Part shown: positions 19,438-44,225 of the stretch, in pieces | Layout: every line of letters starts with the position of its first letter | How positions within the stretch are numbered: position 1 is the first letter of the stretch | DNA from: Wenjunlia tyrosinilytica | GTDB lineage: Bacteria > Actinomycetota > Actinomycetes > Streptomycetales > Streptomycetaceae | Reading direction: 5' to 3' | Assembly: GCF_014646055.1 (NCBI RefSeq) | Contig: NZ_BMMS01000006.1 | Location: 180,883 to 244,882, forward strand | DNA length: 64,000 bases | Translations under genes and position numbers: made by a program | The notes under the pieces: model-generated | Told to the model about the DNA's origin: nothing | The model's input: only the letters and a program-made list of their open reading frames with translations | Databases searched by the model: none

Positions 19438-21594
19438 ATGTCTGTAACCGCCGCTGACAGCTTCGCCATGCCCATCGACGACGTGGACGAGCAGCTCAAC
19501 GACGCGACCACCGCTCCCGAGACCAACGTCTCCGAGACCGCCGTCTCCGAGACCAACGCCTCCGAGGCTGCCGTCTCGATGACCGGCGCCTCCGAGACCG
19601 CCCCGGCCGACGAGCCCACCCTCACCTTCGGCGACCTCGGCCTGCACGAGGACATCGTGCGCGCCCTCGCCAAGCGCGGCGTCACCACGCCGTTCCCGAT
19701 CCAGTCCGCGACCATCCCGGACGCGCTGGCGGGCAAGGACATCCTCGGCCGCGGCCGTACCGGCTCCGGCAAGACCCTCAGCTTCGGTCTTCCGCTGCTG
19801 ACCCGCCTCGCGGACGGCGGCCGCACCCAGGCCAAGCGCCCCCGCGGCATCATCCTCACCCCCACCCGTGAGCTGGCCATGCAGGTCTCCGACGCGCTCG
19901 AGCCCTACGGCTCCGTGCTCGGCCTGAACCTCAAGGTCGTCTGCGGCGGCACCTCGATGCCCCGTCAGATCTACGCTCTCGAGCGCGGCGTGGACATCCT
20001 CGTCGCCACCCCGGGCCGTCTGCGCGACCTGATCGACCGCGGCGCCTGCTCGCTCGACAAGGTGGAGATCGCCGTCCTCGACGAGGCCGACCAGATGGCC
20101 GACATGGGCTTCCTGCCCGAGGTCACCGAGATCCTCGACCTGGTTCCCCCGGGCGGCCAGCGGATGCTGTTCTCCGCCACGCTGGAGAACGAGATCGACT
20201 CGCTGGTGAAGCGCTACCTGTCCAACCCGGTCACCCACGAGGTCGACCCGTCCGCGGGCGCGGTCACGACGATGACCCACCACCTGCTGGTGGTGAAGCC
20301 CAAGGACAAGGCCCCCGTGACCGCGGCGATCGCCGCGCGCAAGGGCCGCACCATCATCTTCGTGCGCACCCAGATGGGCGCCGACCGCGTCGCCGAGCAG
20401 CTCATCGAGTCCGGGGTGCGCGCCGACGCGCTCCACGGCGGTATGACGCAGGGCGCGCGCACCCGCACCCTCGCCGACTTCAAGGACGGTTACGTCAACG
20501 TCCTCGTCGCCACCGACGTCGCCGCCCGCGGAATCCACGTCGACGGCATCGACCTGGTCCTCAACGTGGACCCGGCCGGCGACCACAAGGACTACCTGCA
20601 CCGCTCGGGCCGCACCGCTCGCGCGGGCCAGAGCGGCACCGTCGTCACCCTGGTCCTGCCGCACCAGCGCCGCTCCACCTTCCGCCTCCTCGAGGACGCG
20701 GGCGTGGATGCCTCCCGCCACATCGTCGGGGGTGCCTTCGACGGCGAGCTGGCCGCCATCACCGGTGCCCGCTCGCTGACCGAGGTTCAGGCCGAGTCGG
20801 CGGCCAACGCCGCCAAGCAGGCCGAGCGCGAGGTCCAGGACCTGACCCGCCAGCTGGAGAAGGTGCAGCGCCGCGCCGACGAACTGCGCGGCGACGCCGA
20901 CCGCCTGGCCGCCCGCGCCGCCCGCGAGCGCGGCGAGGAGGTCCCGGCCGCCGGTGCCGAGGTCACGATCCCGGCCCAGCCCGCCGAGCCGGTCGTGCCC
21001 GTGGCCGACGAACCCGCCGAGAAGGTGGAGCAGCCGCGCCGCGAGGAGCGCTCCTTCGACCGCCGTGACGACCGTTCCGGTGGCGGTTACAGCCGTGACC
21101 GCCGTGACGACCGTTCCGCCGGCGGCTACAGCCGCGACCGCCGTGACGACCGCGGCGGCCGTTCCTTCGACCGCGACCGCAACGACCGCGACCGCGACCG
21201 TGCCCCCCGTTCGTTCGACCGCCGTGACGACCGTGGCGGCCGTTCCTTCGAGCGCCGTGACGACCGTTCCGGTGGCGGTTACAGCCGTGACCGCCGTGAC
21301 GACCGTTCCGCCGGCGGCTACAGCCGCGACCGCCGTGACGACCGCGGCGGCCGCTCGTTCGACCGCGACCGCGCGCCGCGCTCCTTCGACCGCCGTGACG
21401 ACCGCCCGAGCGGCGGCCGTTCCTTCGACCGTCCGGAGAACCGCGGCCACGGCCACGACCGCCGTGACGACCGTGGCGGCCGTTCCTTCGACCGCGACCG
21501 CGCGCCGCGCTCCTTCGACCGCCGTGACGACCGCCCGAGCGGCAGCCGCGCCGGCGTCGCGGAGCGCAAGCCCCGCTGGAAGCGCAACGGCTGA
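19438..21594 (+). CDS. DEAD-box ATP-dependent RNA helicase with repetitive C-terminal tail
   Basis: A DEAD-box RNA helicase of about 718 residues. In order: an N-terminal Thr/Ser/Glu-rich extension (1-60), Q motif LTFGDLGLHEDIV, Walker A GRTGSGKT (about 107-114), Ia PTRELAMQ, TPGRL, DEADQMADMGF (about 215), SAT, IIFVRT, ATDVAARGIHV and HRSGRTARAG. A coiled-coil-like Glu/Arg region follows (about 455-510). The last 180 residues are repeats of RRDDR, SFDR and GGYSRD units, an arginine-rich disordered tail typical of RNA-binding and condensate-forming helicases. Likely roles are ribosome or mRNA remodelling, including at low temperature. The ATG at 19438 is preferred, with the in-frame ATG at 19468 as alternative. 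Confidence 0.93.
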   Translation: MSVTAADSFAMPIDDVDEQLNDATTAPETNVSETAVSETNASEAAVSMTGASETAPADEPTLTFGDLGLHEDIVRALAKRGVTTPFPIQSATIPDALAGKDILGRGRTGSGKTLSFGLPLLTRLADGGRTQAKRPRGIILTPTRELAMQVSDALEPYGSVLGLNLKVVCGGTSMPRQIYALERGVDILVATPGRLRDLIDRGACSLDKVEIAVLDEADQMADMGFLPEVTEILDLVPPGGQRMLFSATLENEIDSLVKRYLSNPVTHEVDPSAGAVTTMTHHLLVVKPKDKAPVTAAIAARKGRTIIFVRTQMGADRVAEQLIESGVRADALHGGMTQGARTRTLADFKDGYVNVLVATDVAARGIHVDGIDLVLNVDPAGDHKDYLHRSGRTARAGQSGTVVTLVLPHQRRSTFRLLEDAGVDASRHIVGGAFDGELAAITGARSLTEVQAESAANAAKQAEREVQDLTRQLEKVQRRADELRGDADRLAARAARERGEEVPAAGAEVTIPAQPAEPVVPVADEPAEKVEQPRREERSFDRRDDRSGGGYSRDRRDDRSAGGYSRDRRDDRGGRSFDRDRNDRDRDRAPRSFDRRDDRGGRSFERRDDRSGGGYSRDRRDDRSAGGYSRDRRDDRGGRSFDRDRAPRSFDRRDDRPSGGRSFDRPENRGHGHDRRDDRGGRSFDRDRAPRSFDRRDDRPSGSRAGVAERKPRWKRNG

Positions 21595-34370: not shown

Positions 34371-35786
34371 ATGTCGATTGACGCACAGACCGGCGCGCAG
34401 ACGCAGAACGGGCAGAACGCGCAGTCGAGCCTGGGGACTGCGGCGGCGCGGAATCTGGCGACGACCACCAAGACCGTTCCGCAGATGCAGGGAATCACCT
34501 CGCGCTGGCTGCTGCGCATGCTGCCCTGGGTCCAGGTCTCGGGCGGCGCCTACCGGGTCAACCGGCGACTGACCTACACGGTCGGCGACGGCCGGGTGAC
34601 CTTCGTCCAGACCGGGTCCGACGTGCGGGTCATTCCGGACGAGCTGCGGGAGCTGGCACTGCTGCGTGAATTCGAGGACGCGGACGTCCTGAGCGCGCTT
34701 GCCCAGCAGTTCGAACAACGGGAATTCCGGCCGGGGGAGATCCTCGTTGAAGCCGGGCAGCCCGCCGACCAAGTATTCCTCGTCGCGCATGGAAAGGTGA
34801 CCAGGCTCGGATCCGGGAAATACGGCGAACAAGTGGTGCTGGGCGTCCTCGCCGACGGAGACCACTTCGGTGAGCACTCGCTGGCGGCCGCCGACGGCGA
34901 GTGGGACTTCACCGTCAAGGCGACCACCAGGGCCACCGTTCTGGTCCTGCCCCGGTCGGCGTTCCAGACCCTGGCCGACCAGCACGCGGCGCTGCGCGAA
35001 CACGTCCGGCGCTACCACTGCGACGACCACGGGCCCACCAACCAGCGCGGCGAGGCCGACATCCTGCTCTCGTCCGGTCACGTGGGCGAGCCGGCCCTGC
35101 CGCAGACCTTCGTCGACTACGAGCTCTCGCCCCGCGAGTACGAGCTGAGCGTCGCGCAGACCGTCCTGCGGGTGCACAGCCGGGTCGCCGACCTCTACAA
35201 CCAGCCGATGGACCAGATGGAGCAGCAGCTCCGGCTGACCATCGAGGCGCTGCGCGAGCGCCAGGAGCACGAGCTCATCAACAACGCCGAGTTCGGCCTG
35301 CTCAACAACGCCGACTACGGCCAGCGCATCCAGACCCACAGCGGGCCGCCCACGCCCGACGACCTCGACGAACTGCTCAGCCGCCGCAGGAACTCGCGGC
35401 TGTTCCTGGCGCATCCGCGCGCGATCGCCGCGTTCGGCCGGGAGTGCAGCTCCCGGGGGATCTACCCCGACAGCGTCGAGGTCCAGGGGCACATGGTGCC
35501 GTCCTGGCGCGGTGTGCCGATCTTCCCGTGCAACAAGATCCCGATCACCGAGCAGGGCACCAGCTCGATCATCGTGATGCGCACCGGCGAGGACAGCCAG
35601 GGTGTCGTCGGCCTGCACCAGACCGGCATCCCGGACGAGTACCAGCCCAGCCTGTCCGTGCGGTTCATGGGCATCGACGAGAAGGCGGTCATCTCCTACC
35701 TCGTCAGCGCCTACTACTCGGCCGCGGTGCTGGTGCCCGACGCGCTCGGCGTCCTCGAGAACGTCGAGATCTCCCGGCACGCGTAG
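34371..35786 (+). CDS. eshA: Family 2B encapsulin shell protein (EshA-like, cyclic-nucleotide-binding)
   Basis: A 471-residue family 2B encapsulin nanocompartment shell protein, closely resembling EshA of Streptomyces griseus. Residues about 1-90 form the first part of the HK97-type fold ([28 protein letters not shown]). A cyclic-nucleotide-binding-like domain is inserted at about 95-215 ([39 protein letters not shown]). The rest of the HK97 fold follows ([75 protein letters not shown]). GGGGAGG fixes the ATG at 34371. It sits 98 bp before a polyprenyl diphosphate synthase, the expected cargo. EshA has been linked to development and ppGpp in Streptomyces. Confidence 0.92.
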
Positions 35787-35884
35787 AGAGGGCGCGGCGG
35801 CACGGCAATGACGGGCGGCCCGGAGGACAGGGCCCGGGCCGCCCGGTCCCGGCGGACGACGGACATGTGTTGGGGGAGGGGCGA

Positions 35885-37102
35885 GTGGGGACGACCACGC
35901 TCGATCGTGAGGACCACGAAGGCGACCACCGGGCTGGAGGCGACCGGGCCGGAGGCGACCACCGGGCCGGAGGCGACCAGGCCGGAGGCGACCAGGCCGC
36001 AGGCGACCAGGCCGCAGGCGACCACCGGGCCGGAGACGGCAACACAGCGGACGGGGGCCGGAAGGGGGACAGGAACGGCGAAGGGCACGAGCACGAGGCC
36101 GAGGAGGTGCTGGGCCGCACCCGCCGACTGGTCGATCCGGCGCTGAGAGCGGCCGTCGGCTCCTTACCGCCCGCGATGCGCGCGATCGCCGCCTACCACT
36201 TCGGCTGGCGCGACGCGGACGGCGCCGAGGCCGAGGCACCCGCGGGCAAGGCGCTGCGGCCCGCCCTCGTCCTGGCCACCACCCAGGCGCTCGGGGGCAG
36301 CCCGGAGCACGCCGTGCGCGCGGCGGCCGCGGTGGAGCTGGTGCACAACTTCACCCTCCTCCACGACGACGTCATGGACGGCGACGCGACCCGGCGGCAC
36401 CGGGCGACGGCGTGGTCGGTGTTCGGTTCCTCGGACGCCATCCTCGCCGGTGACGCCATGCACTCCCTGGCGCTGCGGATCCTCGCCGAGGACGACCACC
36501 CGGCGGCCATCGCGGCCGCGGCCAGGCTCGCCGCGTGCGTGGTGGAACTGTGCGAGGGACAGCACGCCGACTGCTCGTTCGAACACCGCGCCGATGTGTC
36601 GGTCGACGAGTGCCTGGCCATGGCCGAGGCCAAGACGGGGGCGCTGTTGGGGTGCGCCTGCGCGATCGGCGCCCTGTACGCCGGTCCGGACACGGCGGTG
36701 GCGGATGCCATGGACGCGTTCGGCCGTCAGATGGGGCTGGCCTTCCAGCTGATCGACGACCTGATCGGGATCTGGGGGGATCCCTCGGTCACCGGCAAGC
36801 CGGTCGGCGCCGATCTGGCGGCGCGCAAGAAGTCGCTGCCGGTGGTGGCGGCGCTGACCTCGGGGACGGCCGCCGCCTCCGACCTCGCCGACGTCTACTT
36901 CGCTCCGGGACCACTGGAGGCCGAGGACCTGCGCCGGGCCGCGGACGCCATCGACCGGGCCATCGGGCGGAACTGGGCGCAGATCCAGGCGTTCGACCGG
37001 ATGGCGGCGGCCATCGAGCATTTGGCCGAGGCGGTGCCCGAGCCCGCCGCGGCCGGCGATCTGCTCGCATTGGCGGAGCTCGTCACCCGCCGGAACAAAT
37101 AG
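35885..37102 (+). CDS. Polyprenyl diphosphate synthase, likely encapsulin cargo
   Basis: A 405-residue trans-isoprenyl diphosphate synthase. The catalytic region (about 75-405) shows the first aspartate-rich motif in LLHDDVMDGDATRRHRAT and the second in LIDDLIGIWGDPS, plus KALRPALVL for pyrophosphate binding, so it should condense IPP with an allylic diphosphate. The N-terminal 70 residues are an unusual disordered repeat of GDHRAGGD, GDQAGGD and GDQAAGD units, absent from ordinary synthases. In family 2B encapsulin systems such N-terminal extensions load the enzyme into the shell, and I infer the same here. The GTG at 35885 follows GGGGGAGGGG. The product chain length is unknown. Confidence 0.88.
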   Translation: MGTTTLDREDHEGDHRAGGDRAGGDHRAGGDQAGGDQAAGDQAAGDHRAGDGNTADGGRKGDRNGEGHEHEAEEVLGRTRRLVDPALRAAVGSLPPAMRAIAAYHFGWRDADGAEAEAPAGKALRPALVLATTQALGGSPEHAVRAAAAVELVHNFTLLHDDVMDGDATRRHRATAWSVFGSSDAILAGDAMHSLALRILAEDDHPAAIAAAARLAACVVELCEGQHADCSFEHRADVSVDECLAMAEAKTGALLGCACAIGALYAGPDTAVADAMDAFGRQMGLAFQLIDDLIGIWGDPSVTGKPVGADLAARKKSLPVVAALTSGTAAASDLADVYFAPGPLEAEDLRRAADAIDRAIGRNWAQIQAFDRMAAAIEHLAEAVPEPAAAGDLLALAELVTRRNK

Positions 37103-42462: not shown

Positions 42463-44043
42463 TCAGAACTGGTCGGTGGCCCAGCGGTGTTGGGCGGTGT
42501 CGTAGCCGTACGCCGTCATGCCCTTGATGCCGCTCGTACGGAAAGGCTGTCCGTGGTCGTCGATCCGGACTGATCCGGAGCGGCCGTTGCTGCTCCATTC
42601 GAGCTCCAGGTACCAGCCGCAGTCGCAGTCGGCCGAGCGGCCGGTCACCAGGAAGGCCTCCGGGTCGATGGCCGAGACGGTGTACGGGAACGAGACCGCG
42701 GGGATCTCGTGCTCACCGTCGGAGCCGGCCTCGGAGTGGGCAACCGGGCGCGGCCTGTCGAGGTCGACGTCGAAGAGCCTCGGGGTGAGGGCCCCGCCGC
42801 AGCCGTTGCTCATGAAGTAGGCGTTCCGCGCAGTGGGGGTGCGCCGGTCGGTGACGCGCACTCGCAGCGCCTCCAGCACCACGGCCCGGCCGGACTTGCC
42901 CTGGAGGGTGATCCGGACCTGGGTGTCCCGCCCGTGCAGGGCTCCGGTGGCCCGTACCCACTGCTCGGCGTCCTGCTCCGGGGGCGGCGGCGGGACGTCG
43001 GCGGGGCCGCGGTTGACGAGGTAGACGTGGTCGCAGCCGTTCTGCCAGATCTGATCGTTGACGGTCCAGGTGAACGGGACGCCGCTCGCGTTCTCGGGTC
43101 CGGCGGGGCGGGAGGGCTTGGGTGCGTCGGAACGGTGGGAGGGCGACCCTTTGGGGGCGCCGGACTTGGACGCCTCGACGGAGGGAGCGGCGGAGGGGGA
43201 GCCGGAGGGGGAGGAGCCGGGCGGTTGACCAACAGGCGCCCGTGACGCAAGCCCCGGCTTGGTACCGGAGGCGCCGGACCGCTCGCCCGCACCCCGGTGG
43301 GAAACCTCCCCCAACCCCAGCGCGGTGGACGCCACCGCCCCGGCAACGACGGCCGCGACAAGCGCTCCCCACCGCAGACGCCGCGCCCGCGGGGAGGGGC
43401 TGCCGTTGATGGCGGAGCCGGAAGCCGAGTCGGAACGGGACGAAGGGTCCGCACCCGGACCGGAATCCACCGCGGCACGTGCGTCCGCGTCAGGGCAGGC
43501 GCCCGCCCCCGAGTTCGAGCTCGTGCCCGTACCTGTATCCGTACCCGTACCTGTATCCGTGCCCGTACCTGTGCCCGTGCCCGTACCTGTGCCCGTGCCC
43601 GTACCTGTGCCCGTGCCCGTACCTGTGCCCGTGCCCGTGCCGGGATCCGGGTCCGCGTCCCCATGTGGTCCGCGAAGCGGACCCAGGACCGTGTCCTGCC
43701 CCTGGCCCGCGTCCCGCCCCTGGCGCGCGTCCGTATCCGGCGGCGAGTCCGAACCCGAGACGACGCCCGTCGCGTCCTTGCGCTTCTTCCTTGCCGCGTC
43801 CGCCAGGATCCACAGCCGGTGCAGCGCGATCAGGTCCTCGCCCTCGCTGCCGCACAGCCTTGCCAGGCGCTCCACCGGGGCGAATTCCACGGGGACCGCC
43901 TCGCCCGAGCAGTATCTGTGCAGCGTGGACGGGCTCACGTTCAGCCGTCCGGCCAAGGCCCCGTAGCTTTTCCGGGACCGGTCCTTGAGCTTGCGCAACC
44001 GCTCGGCGAACTCATCGACTTCGGCTTCCTTCGGCGCGCCCAT
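42463..44043 (-). CDS. Membrane-spanning HTH protein with Gly-Thr repeat linker
   Basis: A 526-residue protein. An Xre-type helix-turn-helix is at about 10-75 (FAERLRKLKDRSRKSYGALAGRLNVSPSTLHRYCSG). A low-complexity cytoplasmic linker includes about 40 residues of alternating Gly-Thr, then one membrane helix (about 225-245, WGALVAAVVAGAVASTALGL). A Ser/Pro spacer and an extracytoplasmic domain follow (about 320-526, FTWTVNDQIWQNGCDHVYLV through ECDCGWYLEL-like cysteines). This is the topology of RodZ-like or one-component membrane regulators. The HTH could bind DNA or a partner protein. GGGAG precedes the ATG at 44043. The divergent secreted protein at 44226 may be a target. Confidence 0.8.
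   Translation of the reverse strand: MGAPKEAEVDEFAERLRKLKDRSRKSYGALAGRLNVSPSTLHRYCSGEAVPVEFAPVERLARLCGSEGEDLIALHRLWILADAARKKRKDATGVVSGSDSPPDTDARQGRDAGQGQDTVLGPLRGPHGDADPDPGTGTGTGTGTGTGTGTGTGTGTGTGTGTDTGTGTDTGTGTSSNSGAGACPDADARAAVDSGPGADPSSRSDSASGSAINGSPSPRARRLRWGALVAAVVAGAVASTALGLGEVSHRGAGERSGASGTKPGLASRAPVGQPPGSSPSGSPSAAPSVEASKSGAPKGSPSHRSDAPKPSRPAGPENASGVPFTWTVNDQIWQNGCDHVYLVNRGPADVPPPPPEQDAEQWVRATGALHGRDTQVRITLQGKSGRAVVLEALRVRVTDRRTPTARNAYFMSNGCGGALTPRLFDVDLDRPRPVAHSEAGSDGEHEIPAVSFPYTVSAIDPEAFLVTGRSADCDCGWYLELEWSSNGRSGSVRIDDHGQPFRTSGIKGMTAYGYDTAQHRWATDQF
43523..43641. repeat. In-frame 12/18-bp minisatellite encoding Gly-Thr
   Basis: About 120 bp of tandem units built from GTGCCC, GTACCT and GTATCC hexamers (18-bp period in the second half). 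It encodes the alternating Gly-Thr linker of the HTH protein. Any unit change keeps the frame, so length should vary among strains. Confidence 0.85.
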
Positions 44044-44225
44044 TGGCTCCCGTTCCCCCAACCGTTCCAGGACGGCGTTCCACCCCACCCACATTCCCCC
44101 ACGTCAAGGGGGTTGGAATGGTTCCACCTTCCCGGAATGCCCCGCGGCCATTGCTGTTCCCGACCGCTTCCGCAGAAGCTGATGAGCGTTCAGCCGCAAC
44201 CGACAACCCGGGGGAACACCCGTCC

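Follow-up and report, generated by a model that had tools for sequence, protein, structure and literature searches.

The window, the 64,000-nucleotide stretch of DNA analysed here, carries on its forward strand a gene for an encapsulin shell protein (34371-35786) and, directly downstream on the same strand after a gap of 98 nt, a gene for a polyprenyl diphosphate synthase (35885-37102), the arrangement of a Family 2B shell and its putative cargo. Gene content and relatives suggest that the genome belongs to the Streptomyces family. The shell protein is a Family 2B (EshA-type) encapsulin with an SrpI-like HK97 domain into which a cNMP-binding domain is inserted (PF19307, PF00027), its best PDB relatives are 9bhu, 9bje and 9bix, and it is the only encapsulin copy found in its own genome. 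A sigma-70 scan found no promoter between shell and synthase, which is weak evidence in actinobacteria. A conserved operon that also takes in the upstream methyltransferase or the downstream M4 protease was considered and rejected, because neither gene turned up at any other locus examined (flanks mostly 1.5-6 kb); the unit is therefore the shell and the synthase. In a genome of the same genus, the place of the synthase after a Family 2B encapsulin that shares 70% identity with the window's (L198/L200; G001:C57:187940-189352, minus strand) is taken by an Orn/Lys/Arg decarboxylase (PF01276, PF03711), which follows on the same strand after about 75 nt, a possible cargo swap. At two further loci (L083, 5158-5785; L085, 2907-5961) the encapsulin matches are split into pieces beside intact synthases, which hints that the shell genes are broken or the sequence contains errors.

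The synthase gene is predicted to start at GTG 35885, behind a ribosome-binding site, GGGGGAGGGG (35872-35881), with an anti-SD energy of -11.4. From there the protein reads MGTTTLDREDHE, then GDHRAG GDRAG GDHRAG GDQAG GDQAA GDQAA GDHRAG, then a non-repeated Gly/Asp-rich spacer, DGNTADGGRKGDRNG (36035-36079, residues 51-65), then EGHEH and the enzyme. This N-terminal tail is 70 residues long; in the predicted model residues 1-58 have pLDDT below 50 and the first helix begins at residue 63. The core, stop codon included (36095-37102), is modelled mostly with pLDDT above 90 and belongs to PF00348 with 3nf2 as best PDB match, so that the enzyme family can be taken as settled by these sequence matches, and the abrupt switch to a normal synthase that the earlier note described holds. 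Its Asp-rich motifs are DDVMD (36365-36379) and DDLIG (36755-36769). The textbook form of the second such motif in these synthases is DDxxD; all aligned rows have DDLIG or DDLLG. It is conceivable that translation really starts downstream, at GTG 36107 or elsewhere, leaving the repeat untranslated, as a GTG with a purine-rich stretch upstream of it does lie four codons into the core. But the stretch from 35885 to the core holds no further start codon, the strong ribosome site precedes GTG 35885, the MGTTTLDRE right after that GTG is homologous to the N-terminus of orthologues, and the reading frame is intact across all seven repeat units, and we consider a downstream start very improbable.

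The repeat itself is a tandem array of seven units, U1 to U7, covering residues 13-50 (35921-36034; called as a DNA repeat at 35920-36035). The units (35921-35938, 35939-35953, 35954-35971, 35972-35986, 35987-36001, 36002-36016 and 36017-36034) are 15 or 18 bp long and encode five or six residues of GDHRAG or GDQAA type. The earlier note had seen 70 residues of GDHRAGGD-like octads here; the N-terminus is indeed repetitive, but its units are shorter than octads and the array fills only part of the tail. That the DNA repeat is near-perfect, as also claimed, is confirmed: U3 equals U7 and U5 equals U6 at the DNA level, the same codons recur (GGA for glycine among them), and none of 2000 residue shuffles and 4 of 2000 synonymous recodings equalled the self-match of the array, and therefore the units most likely arose by duplication in the DNA. 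Near-identical head-to-tail units with lengths in multiples of 3 bp make this a coding minisatellite, and because every unit is such a multiple, gain or loss of units preserves the frame, as the earlier note had foreseen for tag length. We also considered a dispersed genomic element, and rejected it since the 24-base unit is private to the synthase gene in its own genome, with four forward matches, all inside the array, none outside it at up to two mismatches and one elsewhere at three. Other in-frame arrays are present in the window: stronger ones at 21057-21548, in the Arg/Asp-rich (DRRDDR) C-terminal tail of an RNA helicase-like protein, and an 18-bp array at 43522-43638 that gives a (GT)n stretch in the minus-strand ORF 42463-44094.

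Related synthases were taken from the genomes of 61 relatives, 101 family genomes, further stretches and a single scan of named genomes, of whose 436 relatives the best 80 were kept. A tail was counted as running from the predicted start up to the position that aligns with residue 71 of the window synthase, the start being bounded by the stop of the upstream encapsulin, and was called long at 30 residues or more. The 192 loci analysed included 184 with a usable core, from which 12 near-duplicates were dropped to leave 172; the eight left out were L007 (a duplicate of the window), L060, L061, L088, L108 and L189 (truncated), and L112 and L191 (no usable core). Those kept comprise 121 adjacent synthases (encapsulin within 1 kb, the window included), 50 non-adjacent ones (no encapsulin within the 1.5-6 kb examined around the synthase) and L010, whose encapsulin lies 4.9 kb away. 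Start codons are predicted and a few tails are possibly mis-called: L114, called at 6 residues, probably starts further upstream, and the starts of L016, L128 and L177 are doubtful. In an order-level group (L107, L109, L110, L111, L113, L114) a GTG by the end of the encapsulin may begin a VAEP or VAES tail, which suggests translational coupling and longer tails than those called for L110 and L114.

Most tails in this sample are short, whereas published tails have 50-100 residues. Beside encapsulins the median is 12 residues, with 87 of 121 tails at 16 or fewer and 23 of 121 at 30 or more, and whichever start is chosen the upstream stop caps the tail at 20 residues in 42 of the 121 and at 30 in 54. 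Away from encapsulins the median is 14 and 5 of 50 tails reach at least 30. Long tails are thus not significantly enriched beside encapsulins (23/121 vs 5/50, Fisher p = 0.18; Mann-Whitney p = 0.35), and the idea that a long tail is encapsulin-specific was rejected. Among the closest relatives, the 23 orthologues at 70-77% identity that adjoin an encapsulin, every tail falls within 11-26 residues (16 or fewer in 20 of the 23), and none has the repeat. Their tails are typically MGxxTLDREGH fused directly to the enzyme, for example MGTSTLDREGH, MGSRTLDRESD or MGTFMLDREGQ. Repetition as such is found in other long tails. Seven of the 23 long adjacent tails (window, L011, L012, L040, L110, L183, L186) are significantly repetitive (p<=0.003 against codon shuffles), and so, strongly, are the tails of the truncated L108 and L189, with no encapsulin in the short stretch examined. 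The repeats of the other repetitive long tails are unrelated to the window's, and the window tail has no BLAST match at E<=0.01 among other adjacent tails of at least 25 residues.

These results bear on the proposal of the earlier note that the repeat, by its position, fits an encapsulin loading domain. The position is right in that the enzyme is a putative Family 2B cargo and the repeat lies in its N-terminal tail, ordinary polyprenyl synthases do lack it, and the same extension was not seen in encapsulin-free genomes among the sampled relatives. But the comparison of synthases beside and away from encapsulins counts against a tag. A loading domain should be common to cargo homologues beside the shell, and this one is absent from 23 of 23; with 54 of 121 loci unable to fit a tail beyond 30 residues and with unrelated repeats elsewhere, it cannot be a general loading signal, and we rejected it as such. 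It is still possible to imagine that many weak GD(H)RAG contacts with the shell interior load this particular synthase, a long multivalent signal having replaced the short one in this lineage. The encapsulin that the synthase adjoins is the only one found in its genome, a loading role has been proposed for the disordered N-termini, 50-100 residues long, of these synthases (PMC8346489, in the part of it available), and a disordered N-terminal domain is reported to be necessary and sufficient in Family 2A (PMC8049743, likewise). Against this stand the repeat-free closest orthologues, the lack of shared sequence with other long tails, the lack of significant enrichment of long tails beside encapsulins, and the absence from the window tail of the known Family 2 loading motifs GPTGLGT, LARLANEFFS and AASPYYFLDG. 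The repeat may have a species-specific loading role, but we think it improbable that it is the loading domain.

How did the repeat get there? Aligned at the DNA level with six orthologues (L089, L009, L100, L096, L099, L092), the window gene has, relative to 11-residue tails, an insertion of about 177 nt (59 codons; 35912-36088, boundaries approximate) that follows the LDRE codons and precedes the EA..L with which the enzyme starts. At the same point the codons for LDREG are duplicated in tandem (15 bp) in L099, and L092/L095 have a diverged duplication; these appear to be a small version of the window's event. In a tree of 127 cores, tail excluded, the window groups with L009 and L089, whose tails both have 11 residues, within a clade of 33 rows (SH-aLRT 86), and the long-tail state (at least 30 residues) requires at least 9 changes. 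Tail length varies widely between species (one genome per species). In the sisters L174 and L186, with cores 93% identical, the tails are 32 and 101 residues long and share the beginning MAEFT and a similar end, DGH or DGQ. Long tails are retained in most of one 15-row clade.

What is conserved in these tails is their ends. The window tail opens with MGTTTLDRE (35885-35911), which matches MGxxTLDREGH of the orthologues, and closes with EGHEH (36080-36094), where orthologues keep (D/E)G(H/Q) before EA..L. D7, R8 and E9 are present in all seven 11-residue tails of Streptomycetaceae at 70% identity or more, and in the window too. In the 15-row long-tailed clade, mean pairwise identity is 0.215 over the first eight residues after the start and 0.488 over the last four of the tail, against 0.10-0.11 for random middle segments (0 of 2000 in either case); without five rows whose tips differ or whose starts are doubtful, the values are 0.325 and 0.544. 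The pattern in long-tailed relatives is thus one of conserved ends and a hypervariable middle. In L096 residues 1-8 have pLDDT below 50 and are predicted to be disordered, and therefore folding on the enzyme does not explain their conservation in that model. It could be that the tip of L096 is conserved for a reason other than shell binding. The ends also matter for a neutral account, the no-function form of the explanation we prefer and overlapping with it, in which slippage in GC-rich DNA makes a minisatellite in a tail without a role and selection removes only frameshifts. The window's other in-frame coding arrays (21057-21548, 43522-43638), the varied lengths and lack of homology among the tails of relatives, and the fact that differences between units mostly alter or delete residues all suit it; conserved tail ends around a variable middle, and long tails that persist over most of a 15-row clade, do not. 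We regard the neutral account as a serious contender, somewhat short of an even chance.

Our main reading, to which we give a probability of roughly 0.75, is that a lineage-specific minisatellite of about 177 bp expanded in frame between the conserved tip and the conserved junction of a short ancestral tail, yielding a disordered, length-variable linker and not a general cargo-loading signal. The array would have grown by tandem duplication and the linker would tolerate changes in its length; most likely the repeat is such a linker or a tolerated expansion. If there is a loading peptide at this end, the sequences point to the short tip, which would contact the shell with the repeat as a tether. 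This is the step of which we are least sure, and it is weakened by L044, L067, L074 and L082, which keep a similar short tail with no encapsulin nearby. We speculate, tentatively, that encapsulin-linked prenyl synthases of the Streptomyces family share a short N-terminal loading peptide like M(G/A)xxTLDRE(GH) and a linker that lengthens fast by in-frame minisatellites, gaining anywhere between zero and about 100 residues, and that linker length would adjust the enzyme's freedom of movement or its packing inside the shell, with the window as an expansion between two conserved ends. As a DNA event the expansion in the window is real but unremarkable; its location is what makes it interesting, and it deserves attention chiefly for bringing to light the short conserved tip as a testable candidate. 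As to how Family 2B shells recognise prenyl synthases, the comparison shows that a long tail is not required. The 11-residue tip is now the smallest testable loading candidate, and natural variants with tails of 11, 16, 32, 70 and 101 residues are at hand for loading tests. A caution also follows: a long low-complexity tail on a cargo enzyme need not be a tag.

Intragenic in-frame minisatellites occur in high-GC bacteria, and the window array resembles them in its in-frame 15- and 18-bp units and near-identical copies, but differs in lying between the two conserved tail ends of an encapsulin-linked enzyme, with parallel expansions in relatives. A study of a 2-methylisoborneol synthase encapsulin reportedly exists; in the open-licence literature we found no description of repeat expansion in these synthase tails. 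The sources that follow are cited for the parts of them that were available. Two-component Family 2B shells are treated in PMC12407261. The closest match is PMC8346489, which describes 900 Family 2B operons with polyprenyl transferases, the cNMP-domain encapsulin gene lying directly upstream of a polyprenyl synthase with a disordered N-terminal tail, as here; the available text gives these tails 50-100 residues and no conserved motif, and suggests a role in loading. With its 70 residues and low pLDDT the window synthase fits the published range, which is not general among adjacent synthases: here tails are mostly of about 11 residues with conserved tips, and the window's is a tandem-repeat insertion. 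In Family 2A, cysteine desulfurase cargo is loaded by a disordered N-terminal domain that is necessary and sufficient (PMC8049743). It resembles the tail of the window synthase in being disordered, N-terminal and part of a Family 2 cargo enzyme, but is about 225 residues long, common to homologues, equipped with two motifs absent here, and proven in function. Family 1 cargo, with its targeting peptide on a flexible Gly/Pro-rich linker (PMC10960027), is built on the same plan, in which a short conserved peptide at the terminus is joined to the enzyme by a flexible linker of low complexity, although that peptide is C-terminal and proven whereas the one in the window is N-terminal and a candidate. 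That disordered N-termini load these synthases is thus already a published proposal (PMC8346489); what is new is the short ancestral tail, its conserved tip and junction, and recurrent in-frame repeat expansion in several lineages.
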